The notes under the pieces: model-generated
What the model saw: the letters and a program-made list of their open reading frames with translations, nothing else
The model's database searches: none
What the model was told of the DNA's origin: nothing
Position numbers and translations under genes: made by a program
NCBI RefSeq assembly: GCF_002077945.1
Contig: NZ_LVYD01000001.1
Location: 186,001 to 250,000 of the forward strand
Direction of reading: 5' to 3'
DNA: 64,000 nucleotides
From: Niastella vici
GTDB taxonomy: Bacteria > Bacteroidota > Bacteroidia > Chitinophagales > Chitinophagaceae
Part shown: positions 25,128 through 31,260 of the stretch, piece by piece
Numbering within the stretch: position 1 is the first letter of the stretch
Layout of the letters: every line of letters begins with the position of its first letter

Positions 25128-25865
25128 ATGAATCACACTCAACAAACATTCGGGGGCATGATCTTCGCCGCGGGTTTGGGTACCCGGTTCAAACCATGGA
25201 CCGATAAACATCCCAAAGCACTGGCAGTGGTGAATGGGAAAAGCCTGCTGCAACGCAATATTGAATACCTGCAACAATATGGCATTACCAATGTAGTGGT
25301 GAACGTGCATCATTTTGCTGGTCAGATCATCGATGCACTTAAAAAAAATAATGGCTGGGGCAGCGCCATCACCATCAGCGATGAAACCGATATGGTGTTG
25401 GAAACCGGTGGCGGTATCAAAAAAGCCGAACCGCTTTTTACCACCGAAAACATTGTGGTGATCAATGTCGATATTCTTACCGACCTCGACCTCGGTAAGC
25501 TCATTGCTTATCACCAGCAGATCAATCCTGTTTCAACCATCGCCATCACCAACAGGACCACTTCCCGTTATTTTCTTTTTGATGAACTCAACAACCTCTG
25601 CGGCTGGCGCAACACCAAAACCGGCGAAGAAAAGATCGCCCGCGCAGCGGCCACTTATATACCCAGGGCGTTCAGCGGTATACATGTGATCAGTAAAAGA
25701 ATGTTGCCCCTCATAAAACAACAGGGAAAATTCTCGATCGTTGACGTATATCTTGAACTCGCCGCTACGCATACCATAAAAGGATTCGATCACAGCGGCT
25801 CGCGGTTTATCGATGTTGGCAAGCCCGATTCAGTAGCCGAAGCAGAGTTATTGTTCAGCAAATAA
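25128..25865 (+). CDS. Sugar-1-phosphate nucleotidyltransferase, MurU-like
   Basis: A 245-residue nucleotidyltransferase. The GT-A signature GMIFAAGLGTRFKPWTDKHP (residues 10-29) and LETGGGIKKA match MurU, which makes UDP-MurNAc from MurNAc 1-phosphate in cell wall recycling, as well as small mannose-1-phosphate guanylyltransferases. Metal-site Asp residues occur in NVDILTDLD and FIDVGKPDS. I chose ATG 25128, 17 bases after nadB; an in-frame ATG at 25020 lies inside nadB and would add residues before the nucleotide motif. The kinase-RapZ fusion gene at 28838 looks like the AmgK partner expected in the MurU route. Confidence 0.8.
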   Translation: MNHTQQTFGGMIFAAGLGTRFKPWTDKHPKALAVVNGKSLLQRNIEYLQQYGITNVVVNVHHFAGQIIDALKKNNGWGSAITISDETDMVLETGGGIKKAEPLFTTENIVVINVDILTDLDLGKLIAYHQQINPVSTIAITNRTTSRYFLFDELNNLCGWRNTKTGEEKIARAAATYIPRAFSGIHVISKRMLPLIKQQGKFSIVDVYLELAATHTIKGFDHSGSRFIDVGKPDSVAEAELLFSK

Positions 25866-25978: not shown

Positions 25979-28426
25979 ATGATAAAGACATCCATTCCTG
26001 CCATTTTCATTTTACTGTTGACCACTTTTGTTGCTTTTGCTCAACCTACACCCTATAACAGCAATTCTTCCGAAAAAGTAAAACTGTCGAATGGCTGGTA
26101 TCTTTCGCCAACAGGCCGGTCATTACCGCTGGGCGATCTGCCCCTGAACCTGGTTGTTTCCCCTTCAAAAAAATACCTGGCCGTAACAAATAACGGGCAA
26201 AGTGTGCAGTCGCTGCAACTGATCGATGCAAAGCATGAAAAAGTATTGTACAGCGAAATCATTCCCAAAAGCTGGTACGGGCTGCGGTTCTCTGCCGATG
26301 AAAAATTCCTCTATGCTTCAGGCGGCAACGATAACTGGATATTACAATACGCCATCACCGATAATAAACTGGTATTAAAAGACAGTATTATACTGGGTAA
26401 GAAATGGCCGGCTAAAATTTCACCGGCCGGTTTGGATATTGACGATGCAAAGAAGTTATTGTACGTGGTTACCCGCGAGAACAACAGTTTGTACATCATT
26501 GACCTTTCTACCAAAAAAATAGTACAACGCATACAGTTAACTGCCGAAGCGTTTACCTGTGTGCTATCGCCCGACAAAAAAGAACTGTACATTTCATTAT
26601 GGGGCGGCGATCAACTGATTGTGGTGAATACCGATAGCCGAACTGTTACCGATTCCATTCCGGTAGGCGATAACCCCAATGAGCTTTGCCTCACAAAAAA
26701 CGGTAAATACCTGTATGTTGCCAATGCCAATGACAACTCCGTTTCAGTGATAGATGTGGCGCAACGCAAAGTGATAGAAACGTTCAATACCGCTTTATAC
26801 GCCGATGCGCCCAATGGTTCTACCACCAACGGGCTGGCATTAAGCGCCAATGAAAAAACACTGTACATCGCCAATGCCGACAATAATTGTTTGGCCGTTT
26901 TTGATGTAACCAAACCCGCAGCCAGTTCATCAAAAGGATTTATACCCACCGGCTGGTACCCTACCAGCGTAAAAGTGATCGGCCGGAAAATATATGTTGC
27001 CAATGGCAAAGGCTTTTCTTCCCTGCCCAACCCCAATGGACCCAAGCCGGTTAAAACCCAGGAAGAAGTAAATTATCAACAGGGCGATAGCAAAAAGCCC
27101 ACAAACGTGCAATACATTGCCGGTTTATTCAAAGGCACATTAAGCATCATTGACGAACCGGCTGAAAAACAAATGGGCGCTTTTTCAAAGATGGTGTATG
27201 ACAATTCGCCTTATAACAAGGAAAAAGAATTGCATACGCAGGGCGAAGCCGGTAACCCGGTGCCTATGAAAATTGGTGATCCTTCCCCCATAAAGTATGT
27301 GTTCTATGTGATCAAGGAAAACCGCACCTACGACCAGGTGCTGGGCGATATATCCGAAGGCAATGGAGATAAAAAACTCGTATTGTTCGGTGAAAAAATA
27401 ACGCCTAACCTGCATGCCATTGCACGTGAATTTGTGTTGCTCGATAATTTTTATGTCGATGGCGAAGTAAGTGCCGATGGCCATAACTGGACCATGGGCG
27501 CCTATGCAACCGATTATCTCGAAAAAACCTGGCCTACCAGTTATGGCGGCCGTGGCGGCACCTATTCGGCTGAAGGTAACCGTGCCGTTGCCAATAATAA
27601 AAAAGGCTTTTTGTGGGACCACTGCCAACGGGCCGGCGTTAGCTTTCGCACCTATGGTGAGTTTGCCGACGACTACAAACCCAATATCCCTGTTTTAAAA
27701 GGGCATTTTTGTACCAGCTATACCGGCTGGGACCTGGCAACCCGCGATACCGTTCGTTTTTATCAATGGAAAAAAGATTTTGATTCGTTACTGGCCATAA
27801 ACCAACTGCCGCAGTTTAATTCAGTGCGTTTTGGCAATGACCATACAGAAGGCCTGCGCAAAGGAAGACCTACGCCTTTTGCACATGTTGCCGATAATGA
27901 CCTGGCAGTAGGTATGTTCATCGAGTACTTAAGTAAAAGCGCTATCTGGAACCAATGCGCCGTCTTTATCATTGAAGACGATGCGCAAAATGGCGCCGAC
28001 CATGTTGACGCCCATCGCAGCACGGCGTATGTGGCCGGTGGACTGGTAAAGCGTCATTTTGTTGATCATACCATGTACTCCACCTCATCCATGTTAAGAA
28101 CAATGGAGTTGATACTGCGCATTCCGCCCATGAGTCAGTACGATGCAGCCGCCACTCCCATGTGGAATTGCTTTACCACCACGCCCAACAGCACGCCATA
28201 CACTTCGCTATCTTCGAATATTGACCTCAACGAAAAAAATACGGCGGTCAACAAATGGCAGCAAAAGTCAGAAGCCTTTAACTTATTGAAAGAAGATGCG
28301 GTGCCCGACCTCGAATTCAATATCGTATTATGGCATGGCTTAAAAGGCGATGATATTCCCTTCCCCGGCCCCCGGCGGGCAGCCTTTGTGAAGTTGAACA
28401 AGGCAGATGAGGACGACGATGATTAA
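25979..28426 (+). CDS. YncE-like beta-propeller plus phosphoesterase, secreted
   Basis: An 815-residue protein with a signal peptide (PAIFILLLTTFVAFA). Residues about 40-390 contain YVTN-type propeller blades (for example KYLYVANANDNSVSVIDVAQ and TLYIANADNNCLAVFDV). From about 435 comes an alkaline phosphatase-superfamily phosphoesterase domain: YVFYVIKENRTYDQVLGD, DNFYVDGEVSADGHNW, and later FIIEDDAQNGADHVDAHRS with metal-binding Asp and His. The domain is related to acid phosphatase/phospholipase C-type esterases. It is probably periplasmic or outer-membrane attached. The C terminus ends in an acidic Asp/Glu tail. The substrate is unknown. Confidence 0.82.
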   Translation: MIKTSIPAIFILLLTTFVAFAQPTPYNSNSSEKVKLSNGWYLSPTGRSLPLGDLPLNLVVSPSKKYLAVTNNGQSVQSLQLIDAKHEKVLYSEIIPKSWYGLRFSADEKFLYASGGNDNWILQYAITDNKLVLKDSIILGKKWPAKISPAGLDIDDAKKLLYVVTRENNSLYIIDLSTKKIVQRIQLTAEAFTCVLSPDKKELYISLWGGDQLIVVNTDSRTVTDSIPVGDNPNELCLTKNGKYLYVANANDNSVSVIDVAQRKVIETFNTALYADAPNGSTTNGLALSANEKTLYIANADNNCLAVFDVTKPAASSSKGFIPTGWYPTSVKVIGRKIYVANGKGFSSLPNPNGPKPVKTQEEVNYQQGDSKKPTNVQYIAGLFKGTLSIIDEPAEKQMGAFSKMVYDNSPYNKEKELHTQGEAGNPVPMKIGDPSPIKYVFYVIKENRTYDQVLGDISEGNGDKKLVLFGEKITPNLHAIAREFVLLDNFYVDGEVSADGHNWTMGAYATDYLEKTWPTSYGGRGGTYSAEGNRAVANNKKGFLWDHCQRAGVSFRTYGEFADDYKPNIPVLKGHFCTSYTGWDLATRDTVRFYQWKKDFDSLLAINQLPQFNSVRFGNDHTEGLRKGRPTPFAHVADNDLAVGMFIEYLSKSAIWNQCAVFIIEDDAQNGADHVDAHRSTAYVAGGLVKRHFVDHTMYSTSSMLRTMELILRIPPMSQYDAAATPMWNCFTTTPNSTPYTSLSSNIDLNEKNTAVNKWQQKSEAFNLLKEDAVPDLEFNIVLWHGLKGDDIPFPGPRRAAFVKLNKADEDDDD

Positions 28427-28500
28427 AAAAATATGGCGGGAACCCAGGGCCTGAACTATTCGAGACTTTTGAATAGTTGCACCCAATTGCCAATTACAGG

Positions 28501-28632
28501 CGACTTATAGGGGAGTTATAGGGGAGTTATAGGGAACTTATAGGGATTATACTCGCTGGCTACTCGCCTGTAACTCGCTCGTAACTCGACTGCACCTCGC
28601 CTACACTTCGCCTGCACCCCGCATGCAAAACC
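28501..28632. repeat. Tandem array of twelve 11-bp units
   Basis: The 411-base gap 28427-28837 holds an array that can be cut without slippage into 11-mers from 28501: CGACTTATAGG, GGAGTTATAGG (twice), GAACTTATAGG, GATTATACTCG, CTGGCTACTCG, CCTGTAACTCG, CTCGTAACTCG, ACTGCACCTCG, CCTACACTTCG, CCTGCACCCCG, CATGCAAAACC. The unit changes gradually from a TTATAGG end to an ACTCG end. A small hairpin AACTATTC/GAATAGTT lies before it (28454-28478). After it, TTTG (28787-28790) and TACGTTAT, 19 bases on, are a poor promoter candidate for the next gene. No gene is supported in the gap. Confidence 0.8.
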
Positions 28633-28837: not shown

Positions 28838-30289
28838 ATGCAATCAATAATCGACGGAATCAATAAGCTCTATGCTGAGTGGAGCGGCTCAACCTGTGAA
28901 CGAATCGAGATCTTACCTCAATCCGGCTCCGACAGGCGATATTTTCGTATCCATACTCCTACCGGGACCTGCATTGCCACCCACGGCCATAACGTTCCCG
29001 AAAATGAGGCCTTCCTTTATTTCTCAGAACACTTTTATAATCAGCAGCTTCCAGTTCCTCAGATCTATGCTTTGGGAGAAGATAAAACGATCTATCTGCA
29101 GCAGGATTTCGGCGATGTGTCATTATTGAACCGGCTCGAGGCAGAAGGGTTTACCGAAAACATTTATGCTCTTTTTAAAAAGAGCCTGCACCAGCTGGCC
29201 CAGTTACAGATAAAAGGCCACGTGGGGCTCGATTACACCCGCTGCCTTACCAACCAGGAATTTGGCAAACAGGCTATTATGGCCGATCTCCTGTATTTTA
29301 AATACTATTTCCTGGATGCATTGCGTAAGCCCTACGACAAGCAAAAACTGATCGATGATTTTGAAGCGCTGAGTAACTACCTCACGCATACAGAGTATAA
29401 ATATTTCATGTTCCGCGACTTTCAGAGCCGCAACATTCTGGTATCGCCCGATGACTCGGTACATTTTATCGATTACCAGGGTGGCATGCAGGGCGCACCC
29501 CAATACGATGTGGCCAGTATGATATGGCAGGCAAGGGCCAATTTACCCGACGAGTGGAAGGAACGCCTGCTGAACGACTATATCGATTCTTTTGAACACA
29601 TCATGAACGAACAGGTTAACCGCGACCTGTTCAAAAGCCAGTATAACGGCTATGTGCTCATCAGGTTGCTGCAGGTTTTAGGCGCATACGGTTTCCGCGG
29701 ACTGTTTGAGCGGAAGGCCCAGTTCCTGACCAGCATACCGCAGGCGTTAAAAAACCTGCGCTCGTTTATCAACGACCAAAGCATGGGCATTGCCGTACCT
29801 GAATTCAGCAAAGTATTACAGGTTTGCGTAAGTGATGAGATCGTTGACCGGTTCACCCCATTGACCGCCGATGAGGAAACCCCGCTGGTAGTACGGGTAC
29901 AAAGCTTTTCATTTAAAAAAGGCCTTCCTACCGATCCTTCAGGCAATGGCGGTGGTTACGTATTCGACTGCCGGGGTATTTTAAACCCGGGCCGCATTGA
30001 ACAATTCAAAACCCAAACCGGCCGCGATAAAGGGGTGAAGGACTACCTGGAACAACAAACCCGTATGGCTGAGTTCCTGAACAGTGTATTCGACATCGTT
30101 GACATCTCGGTTGAAGATTATATCCGCCGCGGTTTCGAGAACCTTTCCGTAAGTTTTGGCTGTACCGGCGGCCAGCACCGCAGTGTTTATGCGGCCGATG
30201 CCCTGGCCCGCCACCTGCGCAATAAGTTCAGGGTTAAGGTAGAGTTAAAGCACGTGGAGCAGGAAGCGAAAAACTGGGTGAATGGTTGA
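28838..30289 (+). CDS. AmgK-like sugar kinase fused to a RapZ C-terminal domain
   Basis: A 483-residue protein with two parts. Residues about 1-310 are an aminoglycoside phosphotransferase-type kinase: SGSDRRYFRI in the N lobe, the catalytic loop MFRDFQSRNIL near 190 and the metal Asp in HFIDYQGG near 210; the closest functional relatives are AmgK-like MurNAc/GlcNAc anomeric kinases. Residues about 350-480 match the RapZ C-terminal domain: SFSFKKGLP, YVFDCRGILNPG, TGRD, and SFGCTGGQHRSVYAADALA. In E. coli this RapZ domain binds glucosamine 6-phosphate and an sRNA. The N-terminal RapZ P-loop domain is absent. A MurU-like enzyme is encoded 3 kb upstream. Confidence 0.85.
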   Translation: MQSIIDGINKLYAEWSGSTCERIEILPQSGSDRRYFRIHTPTGTCIATHGHNVPENEAFLYFSEHFYNQQLPVPQIYALGEDKTIYLQQDFGDVSLLNRLEAEGFTENIYALFKKSLHQLAQLQIKGHVGLDYTRCLTNQEFGKQAIMADLLYFKYYFLDALRKPYDKQKLIDDFEALSNYLTHTEYKYFMFRDFQSRNILVSPDDSVHFIDYQGGMQGAPQYDVASMIWQARANLPDEWKERLLNDYIDSFEHIMNEQVNRDLFKSQYNGYVLIRLLQVLGAYGFRGLFERKAQFLTSIPQALKNLRSFINDQSMGIAVPEFSKVLQVCVSDEIVDRFTPLTADEETPLVVRVQSFSFKKGLPTDPSGNGGGYVFDCRGILNPGRIEQFKTQTGRDKGVKDYLEQQTRMAEFLNSVFDIVDISVEDYIRRGFENLSVSFGCTGGQHRSVYAADALARHLRNKFRVKVELKHVEQEAKNWVNG

Positions 30290-30364: not shown

Positions 30365-30372
30365 TATCTTTG
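30365..30372 (+). promoter_or_regulatory. -7 promoter element touching the acyltransferase start
   Basis: TATCTTTG fits TAnnTTTG and ends seven bases before the ATG at 30379, so the transcript should begin at or next to the start codon. The in-frame TTG at 30370 is part of the box. TCTG at 30342-30345 is a weak -33 match 19 bases upstream. Confidence 0.6.
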
Positions 30373-30378
30373 CAGCCC

Positions 30379-31260
30379 ATGTATTACATTGTTTACGGTT
30401 TATTGTACCTGATTTCGTTATTGCCCCTGCGCGTATTGTATATTTTGTCAGATGCCTTTTATGTACTGGTCTATCGCATATTAGGTTATCGCCGCAAAGT
30501 AGTGCTCGACAACCTGCAAATCGCATTTCCAGAGAAAACCCTGGCCGAACGAAAAAAGATCGCCAGCAAATTCTACCATAATTTTATCGATTCCATTATA
30601 GAAAGCCTGAAAATGGTTTCAGCCAGTGATGCTTATATCAAAAAAAGGGTAAGCGGTAACTGGGAAGTGTTGAATGATCTTTATAAAACCGGCCGCAGCT
30701 GCCAAATACACCTGGGTCATACGTTCAACTGGGAATGGGCCAACCTGGTGGGGGCCAAAGCCATGCATTATACCTTTTTGGGTGTTTATATGCCCATTAA
30801 GAACAAAACCTTCGACCGGTTATTCAGACATCTCCGCAGCAAATCAGGCTCCGTATTATTGCCGGCCACCGAAATGCGTACGGCCATGCTTCCCTGGCGC
30901 AACAAACAATACTGTATTGGCCTGGTAGCCGATCAGTCACCCTCAGCGGCCGAAAAAAGCTTCTGGTGTAACTTTTTTGGAAAACCAACCGGCTTTGTAC
31001 CCGGCCCCGAAACAGGCGCCCGCGCAAACAATATCCCGGTTGTTTTTGCCAATATTGAAAAGCCCAGGCGGGGTTATTATAAAGTGGTGTTTACCCTGGC
31101 CGAAGACCAGCCTTCCTCGTTGAAAAGAGGCGAACTTACCCTGCGTTATGCCCGCTATCTGGAGCAAGTGATTAAACAACAACCCGATATGTGGTTGTGG
31201 AGCCATCGCCGCTGGAAAAAAGACTGGAATGAAGAATGGAGAAAAAACTGGGTTGAATAA
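30379..31260 (+). CDS. Lipid A biosynthesis-type acyltransferase (LpxL/HtrB family)
   Basis: A 293-residue membrane-associated lysophospholipid acyltransferase-fold protein. An N-terminal hydrophobic segment (YIVYGLLYLISLLPLRVLYIL) anchors it to the inner membrane. The catalytic HX4[DE] motif is HTFNWE near residue 115, followed by FLGVYMPIKN and the GLVADQSPS segment with the conserved DQ near 185. It probably transfers a secondary acyl chain to lipid A or another lipid. ATG 30379 is preferred over the TTG at 30370 because the TTG lies in the -7 box. The Trp/Lys/Arg-rich C terminus (MWLWSHRRWKKDW) is typical of the family. Confidence 0.86.
   Translation: MYYIVYGLLYLISLLPLRVLYILSDAFYVLVYRILGYRRKVVLDNLQIAFPEKTLAERKKIASKFYHNFIDSIIESLKMVSASDAYIKKRVSGNWEVLNDLYKTGRSCQIHLGHTFNWEWANLVGAKAMHYTFLGVYMPIKNKTFDRLFRHLRSKSGSVLLPATEMRTAMLPWRNKQYCIGLVADQSPSAAEKSFWCNFFGKPTGFVPGPETGARANNIPVVFANIEKPRRGYYKVVFTLAEDQPSSLKRGELTLRYARYLEQVIKQQPDMWLWSHRRWKKDWNEEWRKNWVE

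Follow-up and report, generated by a model that had tools for sequence, protein, structure and literature searches.

The gene at 28838–30289 on the forward strand of the window, the whole 64-kb stretch of Niastella vici DNA that was analysed, encodes an AmgK-like kinase fused to the C-terminal domain of RapZ, and it very probably forms part of a MurNAc salvage module of Bacteroidota made up of an AmgK-like kinase, the RapZ domain and a MurU-like nucleotidyltransferase. As an overall explanation we tentatively suggest that the RapZ domain would be the MurNAc-6-phosphate phosphatase of this three-part module, a reading with a little less than an even chance of holding. In enteric bacteria RapZ acts as an RNA adapter; its C-terminal domain occurs far beyond them, and the Bacteroidota module would supply that domain with an enzyme partner and a pathway. 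The features concerned are as follows.

28838–30289, forward strand: fusion of an AmgK-like kinase with the RapZ C-terminal domain, 483 residues (single open frame with an ATG start; PF01636 and PF22740 over cut-off)
28838–29827, forward strand: kinase part, residues 1–330 (PF01636; the model is matched best by structures of APH-type kinases)
29888–30256, forward strand: RapZ C-terminal domain, residues 351–473 (PF22740; phmmer; match of the model to 5o5s)
30161–30184, forward strand: C-x5-R-S loop, C442 to S449, equivalent to C247–S254 of E. coli RapZ (alignment of 131 rows)
25128–25865, forward strand: MurU-like nucleotidyltransferase (NF045761 the best model at 126.4 bits, under its cut-off of 250)
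25979–28426, forward strand: 815-residue beta-propeller/phosphoesterase gene between the murU-like gene and the fusion (Pfam/NCBIfam; comparison of loci)

The fusion is real. Pfam places PF01636 (APH) at residues 27–249 (54.2 bits, cut-off 23.2) and PF22740 (PapZ_C) at residues 351–473 (118.7 bits, cut-off 27), in agreement with the first-pass annotation, which had read an APH/AmgK-like kinase and the RapZ C-terminal domain in a single frame, and phmmer matches residues 27–327 to the putative APH 3csv (E 7e-10) and residues 340–472 to structures of E. coli RapZ (E ~9e-15). The same annotation was right that the RapZ P-loop domain is missing: PF03668 has no match in the protein or elsewhere in the Niastella genome, and it was found in none of the 80 genomes searched, as against 6 of 14 control genomes. 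The only PapZ_C domain in the 10.06-Mb genome is that of the fusion. Against the full-length RapZ equivalog NF003828 the protein scores 109.5 bits, below the cut-off of 244, matching only the C-terminal half of the model. The scores with the AmgK equivalogs NF045759 (48.7 bits, cut-off 550) and NF045698 (40.4 bits, cut-off 500) are also below cut-off, and the names AmgK and MurU are used here by resemblance, for proteins that score far under the NCBIfam curated cut-offs. D194, N199 and D212, which we take to be the catalytic residues of APH kinases, are at least 99% conserved among 117 aligned fusions. A model of the full-length protein (pLDDT 87.8, pTM 0.71) has APH-type kinases as its best structural matches, with 3csv first, while the model of residues 340–483 (pLDDT 93.9) matches the C-terminal domain of E. 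coli RapZ (5o5s) with a Z score of 19.4 and 1.6 Å over 123 residues, followed by phosphofructokinase at Z 5.7 and then many unrelated folds. Among the matches listed, the closest titled relatives are Niastella and Longitalea proteins with 90–93% identity. Since the kinase and PapZ_C share a frame in 118 of 131 Bacteroidota rows, including 80 that come from other titled records, the arrangement is not an accident of assembly.

PapZ_C is present in 49 of the 395 sampled Bacteroidota genomes, with one match in each. By the length of the open frame 37 are fused (476–524 residues) and 12 stand alone (134–169 residues), and none of the 49 genomes has one of canonical RapZ length, about 285 residues. 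The matches to the kinase and to PapZ_C lie in one frame in all 37 fused loci (L001–L019, L021–L030 and L123–L130). In a midpoint-rooted tree of 58 kinases, taking every sixth titled-record locus and leaving out L001, L020 and matches of 250 residues or fewer, a clade of seven unfused members (support 1.0) and the unfused kinase of L122 are nested among the fused kinases. There have been two or more switches between the fused and the unfused state, in a direction that depends on the root. A 95-kb Bacteroides finegoldii record labelled as a plasmid carries a 476-residue fusion (L133, 3990–5420) with a murU-like gene adjoining; its kinase part is 42% and its RapZ part 54% identical to the Niastella protein. 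The label ‘RNase adapter RapZ’, which at least one RefSeq record, this one, gives to such a kinase fusion, looks wrong and would be corrected by the module. On a small Streptomyces plasmid (L134, 2995–3393) a short gene with the same label is the C-terminal domain alone; of 87 plasmid records in which the domain was matched, 32 are from Streptomyces. Among the open-licence papers listed, judged largely by titles and the openings of abstracts, none described a kinase–RapZ fusion, so that its absence from print is unproven; the arrangement itself is real and widespread, and the domains combined in it are known ones.

The link to MurU and the recycling of cell-wall sugars, drawn in the first-pass annotation from one neighbouring gene, is borne out across the phylum, and the same fusion is indeed found next to murU in other Bacteroidota: 37 of the 395 genomes carry it, and a murU-like gene lies within 5 kb at 75 of 80 fused loci, these being the best 80 of 184 confirmed titled records. 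On the same strand, the murU-like gene is less than 1 kb downstream at 64 loci, less than 1 kb upstream at 6 and 1–5 kb upstream at 5. No murU-like gene (E < 1e-20) was found at the other five; at four of these the contig ends within 3 kb to one side or to both, and the fifth, L094, has 10 kb of sequence on both sides. In Niastella the murU-like gene is some 3 kb upstream of the fusion, and the 815-residue gene lies between the two. That 815-residue gene is near the fusion in L031–L034 and missing there in L035 and L036, where murU is 124 and 154 bases upstream of the fusion; it therefore appears to be a local insertion, and it probably stands outside the module. After the Niastella fusion, in the slot occupied by murU in other loci, there is a lipid A acyltransferase-like gene (30370–31260), also present in several close relatives, and the gap upstream of the fusion (28500–28625) contains short imperfect direct repeats in the raw sequence.

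Where PapZ_C stands alone (L111–L122), amgK-like, PapZ_C and murU-like genes are immediate neighbours on the same strand at 8 of the 12 loci (L115–L122). At L114 PapZ_C adjoins the murU-like gene and the kinase is elsewhere in the genome, and at L111–L113 both of the other genes are elsewhere. All 49 PapZ_C genomes have AmgK-like and MurU-like genes. An MFS transporter gene, possibly for a sugar importer, adjoins the stand-alone PapZ_C on the same strand at L111 (4627–5907) and L113 (4773–6050), in two genomes of one genus.

Searches over all 395 genomes found a relative of the kinase (E ≤ 1e-12) in 122 and MurQ (E ≤ 1e-60) in 277, with both present in 21, the kinase only in 101, MurQ only in 256 and neither in 17. 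The AmgK-like kinase and MurQ are anti-correlated in this set, as published for proteobacteria: in the available text of PMC5371407, MurQ and AmgK–MurU are alternatives in Beta- and Gammaproteobacteria, and this exclusion was used to find MupP. The same paper reports that E. coli deleted for murQ builds up MurNAc-6-phosphate. Because the exclusion in Bacteroidota matches that pattern, we favour a role in MurNAc salvage in spite of the weak model scores. For Tannerella, itself a member of the Bacteroidota, PMC7670621 describes the use of AmgK together with MurU. The genome of Niastella vici has AnmK and MurQ in addition to the module. As the genomes are related by descent, Fisher p-values were not taken as evidence. 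Of the 122 genomes with a kinase relative, 50 form a close group (E < 1e-39) made up of G009 and every one of the 49 with PapZ_C; the other 72 (E 8e-23 to 1e-12) are more distant, belong without exception to family f18 and have no PapZ_C. The f18 kinases, from two genera, have about 25% identity, and the family also lacks AnmK and, as read off the MurQ listing for the 395 genomes, MurQ.

What the analysis shows is the architecture of the module, its co-occurrence, its synteny and the conservation of its residues; the substrate, the catalysis and the hand-over between domains are inferred. AnmK or another sugar kinase would make MurNAc-6-phosphate; the RapZ domain, as a cysteine-dependent phosphatase, would use its C-x5-R-S loop to strip off the 6-phosphate; the fused kinase would then phosphorylate the free sugar at C1, and the MurU-like protein would go on to make UDP-MurNAc. 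The RapZ domain would in this way take the place that MupP, an unrelated phosphatase of the HAD type, has in Pseudomonas and, in Bacteroidota, would serve RNA no longer. C-x5-R-[ST] is the loop motif of cysteine-dependent phosphatases. Residues were counted in an alignment to E. coli RapZ of 131 Bacteroidota rows (118 fused and 13 unfused), which include at least three duplicate pairs (the window and L001, L020 and L122, and apparently L023 and L037). In E. coli numbering C247, T248, G249, G250, H252, R253 and S254 are invariant in all 131 rows, and K251, the fourth x of the loop, is Gln in 129, that is in every fused and 11 of the 13 unfused rows, and Arg in the other two. According to the accessible portion of PMC9841335, C247A and C247S abolish the activity of E. 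coli RapZ, for which the authors suggest a catalytic thiol, and a crystal of the C-terminal domain with GlcN6P showed density of a likely transformed product. All the C247 variants tested there also lost GlmZ binding, so the cysteine may matter for binding only. The pocket of RapZ has been noted to resemble the loops of cysteine phosphatases, with hydrolysis of GlcN6P considered possible (PMC7199280), and papers that cite Luciano 2009 and Cui 2018 ascribe phosphatase activity to the homologues YvcJ and HpaP. That the loop may be catalytic, which the first-pass annotation did not consider, has been raised before for RapZ of E. coli (PMC7199280) and fits the pathway at least as well as sensing would; MurNAc-6-phosphate as the target beside AmgK in Bacteroidota is a proposal of this analysis.

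If the domain were a phosphatase, PapZ_C would be expected where AnmK is present and MurQ absent, and AnmK would be expected to be missing where the kinase occurs without PapZ_C. AnmK was searched for in a set of 80 genomes, made up of the 49 PapZ_C carriers and 31 hand-picked from the 346 non-carriers, and in a second set of 74, made up of the 73 kinase genomes without PapZ_C and one other; because of the hand-picking, rates among the non-carriers of the 80 are not a fair sample. Among the 80, AnmK occurs without MurQ in 15 genomes, and all 15 carry PapZ_C. AnmK was found in none of the 73 kinase genomes without PapZ_C (the 72 of f18 and G009), a result that amounts to about two independent cases as 72 of the 73 are from one family. 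It was also missing from one further genome of the 74 searched; 20 of the 74 are less than 90% complete or more than 5% contaminated, and none of the remaining 54 has it. The idea that AnmK is commoner alongside PapZ_C was ruled out, as it is present in 32 of the 49 carriers (in G216 as a fragment at a contig edge) and in 28 of the 31 non-carriers.

Against a phosphatase stand the 17 of 49 PapZ_C genomes that lack AnmK, 13 of which also lack MurQ while the C-x5-R-S loop is unchanged. A BcrAD_BadFG frame (296–331 residues, E < 1e-20) is listed for 11 of these 13 and was not found in G351 or G394; such frames are also present in genomes having AnmK or MurQ, and a BadF-type kinase as the source of the 6-phosphate where AnmK is missing is suggestive only. 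HAD proteins weakly resembling MupP, which could carry out the MupP step, are present in 78 of the 80 genomes. The MupP model NF009696 was exceeded at its curated cut-off in none of the 80 genomes and in none of 14 control genomes either, which makes its absence uninformative. No general acid was identified in the RapZ domain, and the H190 equivalent is lost. A search of structures for a tyrosine-phosphatase fold gave DUSP14 only at the level of noise and tied with unrelated folds (Z 4.9, rmsd 3.4 Å over 90 residues). The ends of the aligned ranges would put Cys111 of DUSP14, presumably its catalytic residue, within about one residue of the cysteine of the model; with no residue alignment behind it, this was not counted.

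Alternatively the domain may be a sensor, binding an amino-sugar 6-phosphate without turnover and switching the kinase, so as to match salvage to de novo supply; this reading is possible, though somewhat less likely than the phosphatase. The first-pass annotation had proposed that the domain could sense hexosamine phosphates and gate the kinase. Sensing of GlcN6P with gating of the kinase is not established: the phosphate-cradling residues are invariant (T248, G249, H252 and R253 in all rows), yet H190, essential in E. coli RapZ according to the available part of PMC9841335, is Gly in all 131 rows, followed by Arg or in some by Lys. A Gly-rich insert precedes this Gly in the Bacteroidota domains, and the Bacteroides fusion has NPGK plus the insert in this region. 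As read from the sequences, canonical RapZ has His at the position in Priestia, Aerococcus, Paracoccus and Azospirillum, Tyr in Fusobacterium and Phe in Microbacterium, and the Streptomyces plasmid protein has Phe; none of these seven sequences has the insert. Because of the Gly and the insert before it, the ligand may differ from GlcN6P. Sensing is in keeping with the E. coli domain, for which bound GlcN6P serves as a signal (PMC7073468, in the text available), with the retention of the domain in genomes without AnmK or MurQ and with the fusion to a kinase, which suits regulation. It leaves the absence of AnmK from the kinase genomes without PapZ_C unexplained, and a lineage effect may account for that. 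Taken together the evidence tilts towards an enzyme without deciding the matter, with a gating sensor as a close rival, and on the sequence comparisons we modestly prefer a phosphatase that stands in for MupP. The catalytic role of the RapZ domain is a testable proposal with a real, if limited, chance of being correct. It is conceivable, with somewhat more doubt, that the RapZ C-terminal domain was at root an amino-sugar 6-phosphate phosphatase, which in Bacteroidota would have replaced MupP and been fused to the downstream kinase, and whose site in E. coli would have become a sensor of GlcN6P and RNA.

A role in assembly, in which the domain would dimerise or tether the kinase, for example to MurU, with a pocket that is vestigial or holds an anion for structural reasons, seems improbable. 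F181 and D182, needed for dimerisation of the E. coli domain according to the part of PMC5737377 available, are invariant in all 131 rows, and both the fused and unfused forms occur near murU; however, the most conserved stretch of the domain is the pocket loop, conservation not being confined to the dimer residues, and the domain is unfused in 12 of the 49 genomes, in 4 of them away from the kinase. Slightly less probable still is that the genes serve another sugar pathway, such as activation of a heptose or hexose 1-phosphate, and that the names AmgK and MurU are wrong. Both proteins are far under the curated cut-offs, and the nucleotidyltransferase also has lower scores to heptose- and hexose-type models, but among sugar-kinase and nucleotidyltransferase models the two proteins match AmgK and MurU best, and the exclusion with MurQ points to MurNAc. 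A role as an RNA adapter like E. coli RapZ, bringing an RNase to a bound sRNA, was rejected as very unlikely despite the homology to an RNA-binding domain, given that the basic tail is lost (V466, A477, K478 and N479 in the fusion for K270, K281, R282 and K283, the K270 and K281–K283 region not being kept as a basic set in the 131 rows), the N-domain is missing, no Rfam family reaches its gathering score within the 64-kb window, and PMC7073468, in the text available, confines the RNA-binding part to Enterobacteriaceae; RNA binding by the Bacteroidota domain is accordingly unlikely.

Should the phosphatase reading be true, the phosphatase step of MurNAc recycling might be filled in a large phylum that includes the gut Bacteroides. 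With the cysteine-dependent tyrosine and dual-specificity phosphatases the RapZ domain has the C-x5-R-[ST] loop in common, and the likeness of the pocket is stated in PMC7199280; the overall structural match is weak, as noted above for DUSP14, and lacks an identified general acid. With RapZ of E. coli, YvcJ of Bacillus and HpaP of Xanthomonas it shares the fold, the C-x5-R-S loop, T248, G249, H252 and R253 and F181 and D182, whereas the Bacteroidota form has no P-loop N-domain, the kinase being in that place or in the next gene, has Gly and then Arg or Lys at H190 together with the Gly-rich insert, and is without the basic RNA-binding tail. Compared with MupP, the domain is PapZ_C and not HAD, and would be a functional stand-in at best. 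The Bacteroidota kinase, fused or adjacent to PapZ_C, and its MurU-like partner have low scores with the AmgK and MurU models, unlike the proteins of the AmgK–MurU–MupP recycling route of Pseudomonas; with that route, as given in the available text of PMC5371407, the module shares the same types of kinase and uridylyltransferase, their adjacency and the exclusion with MurQ.
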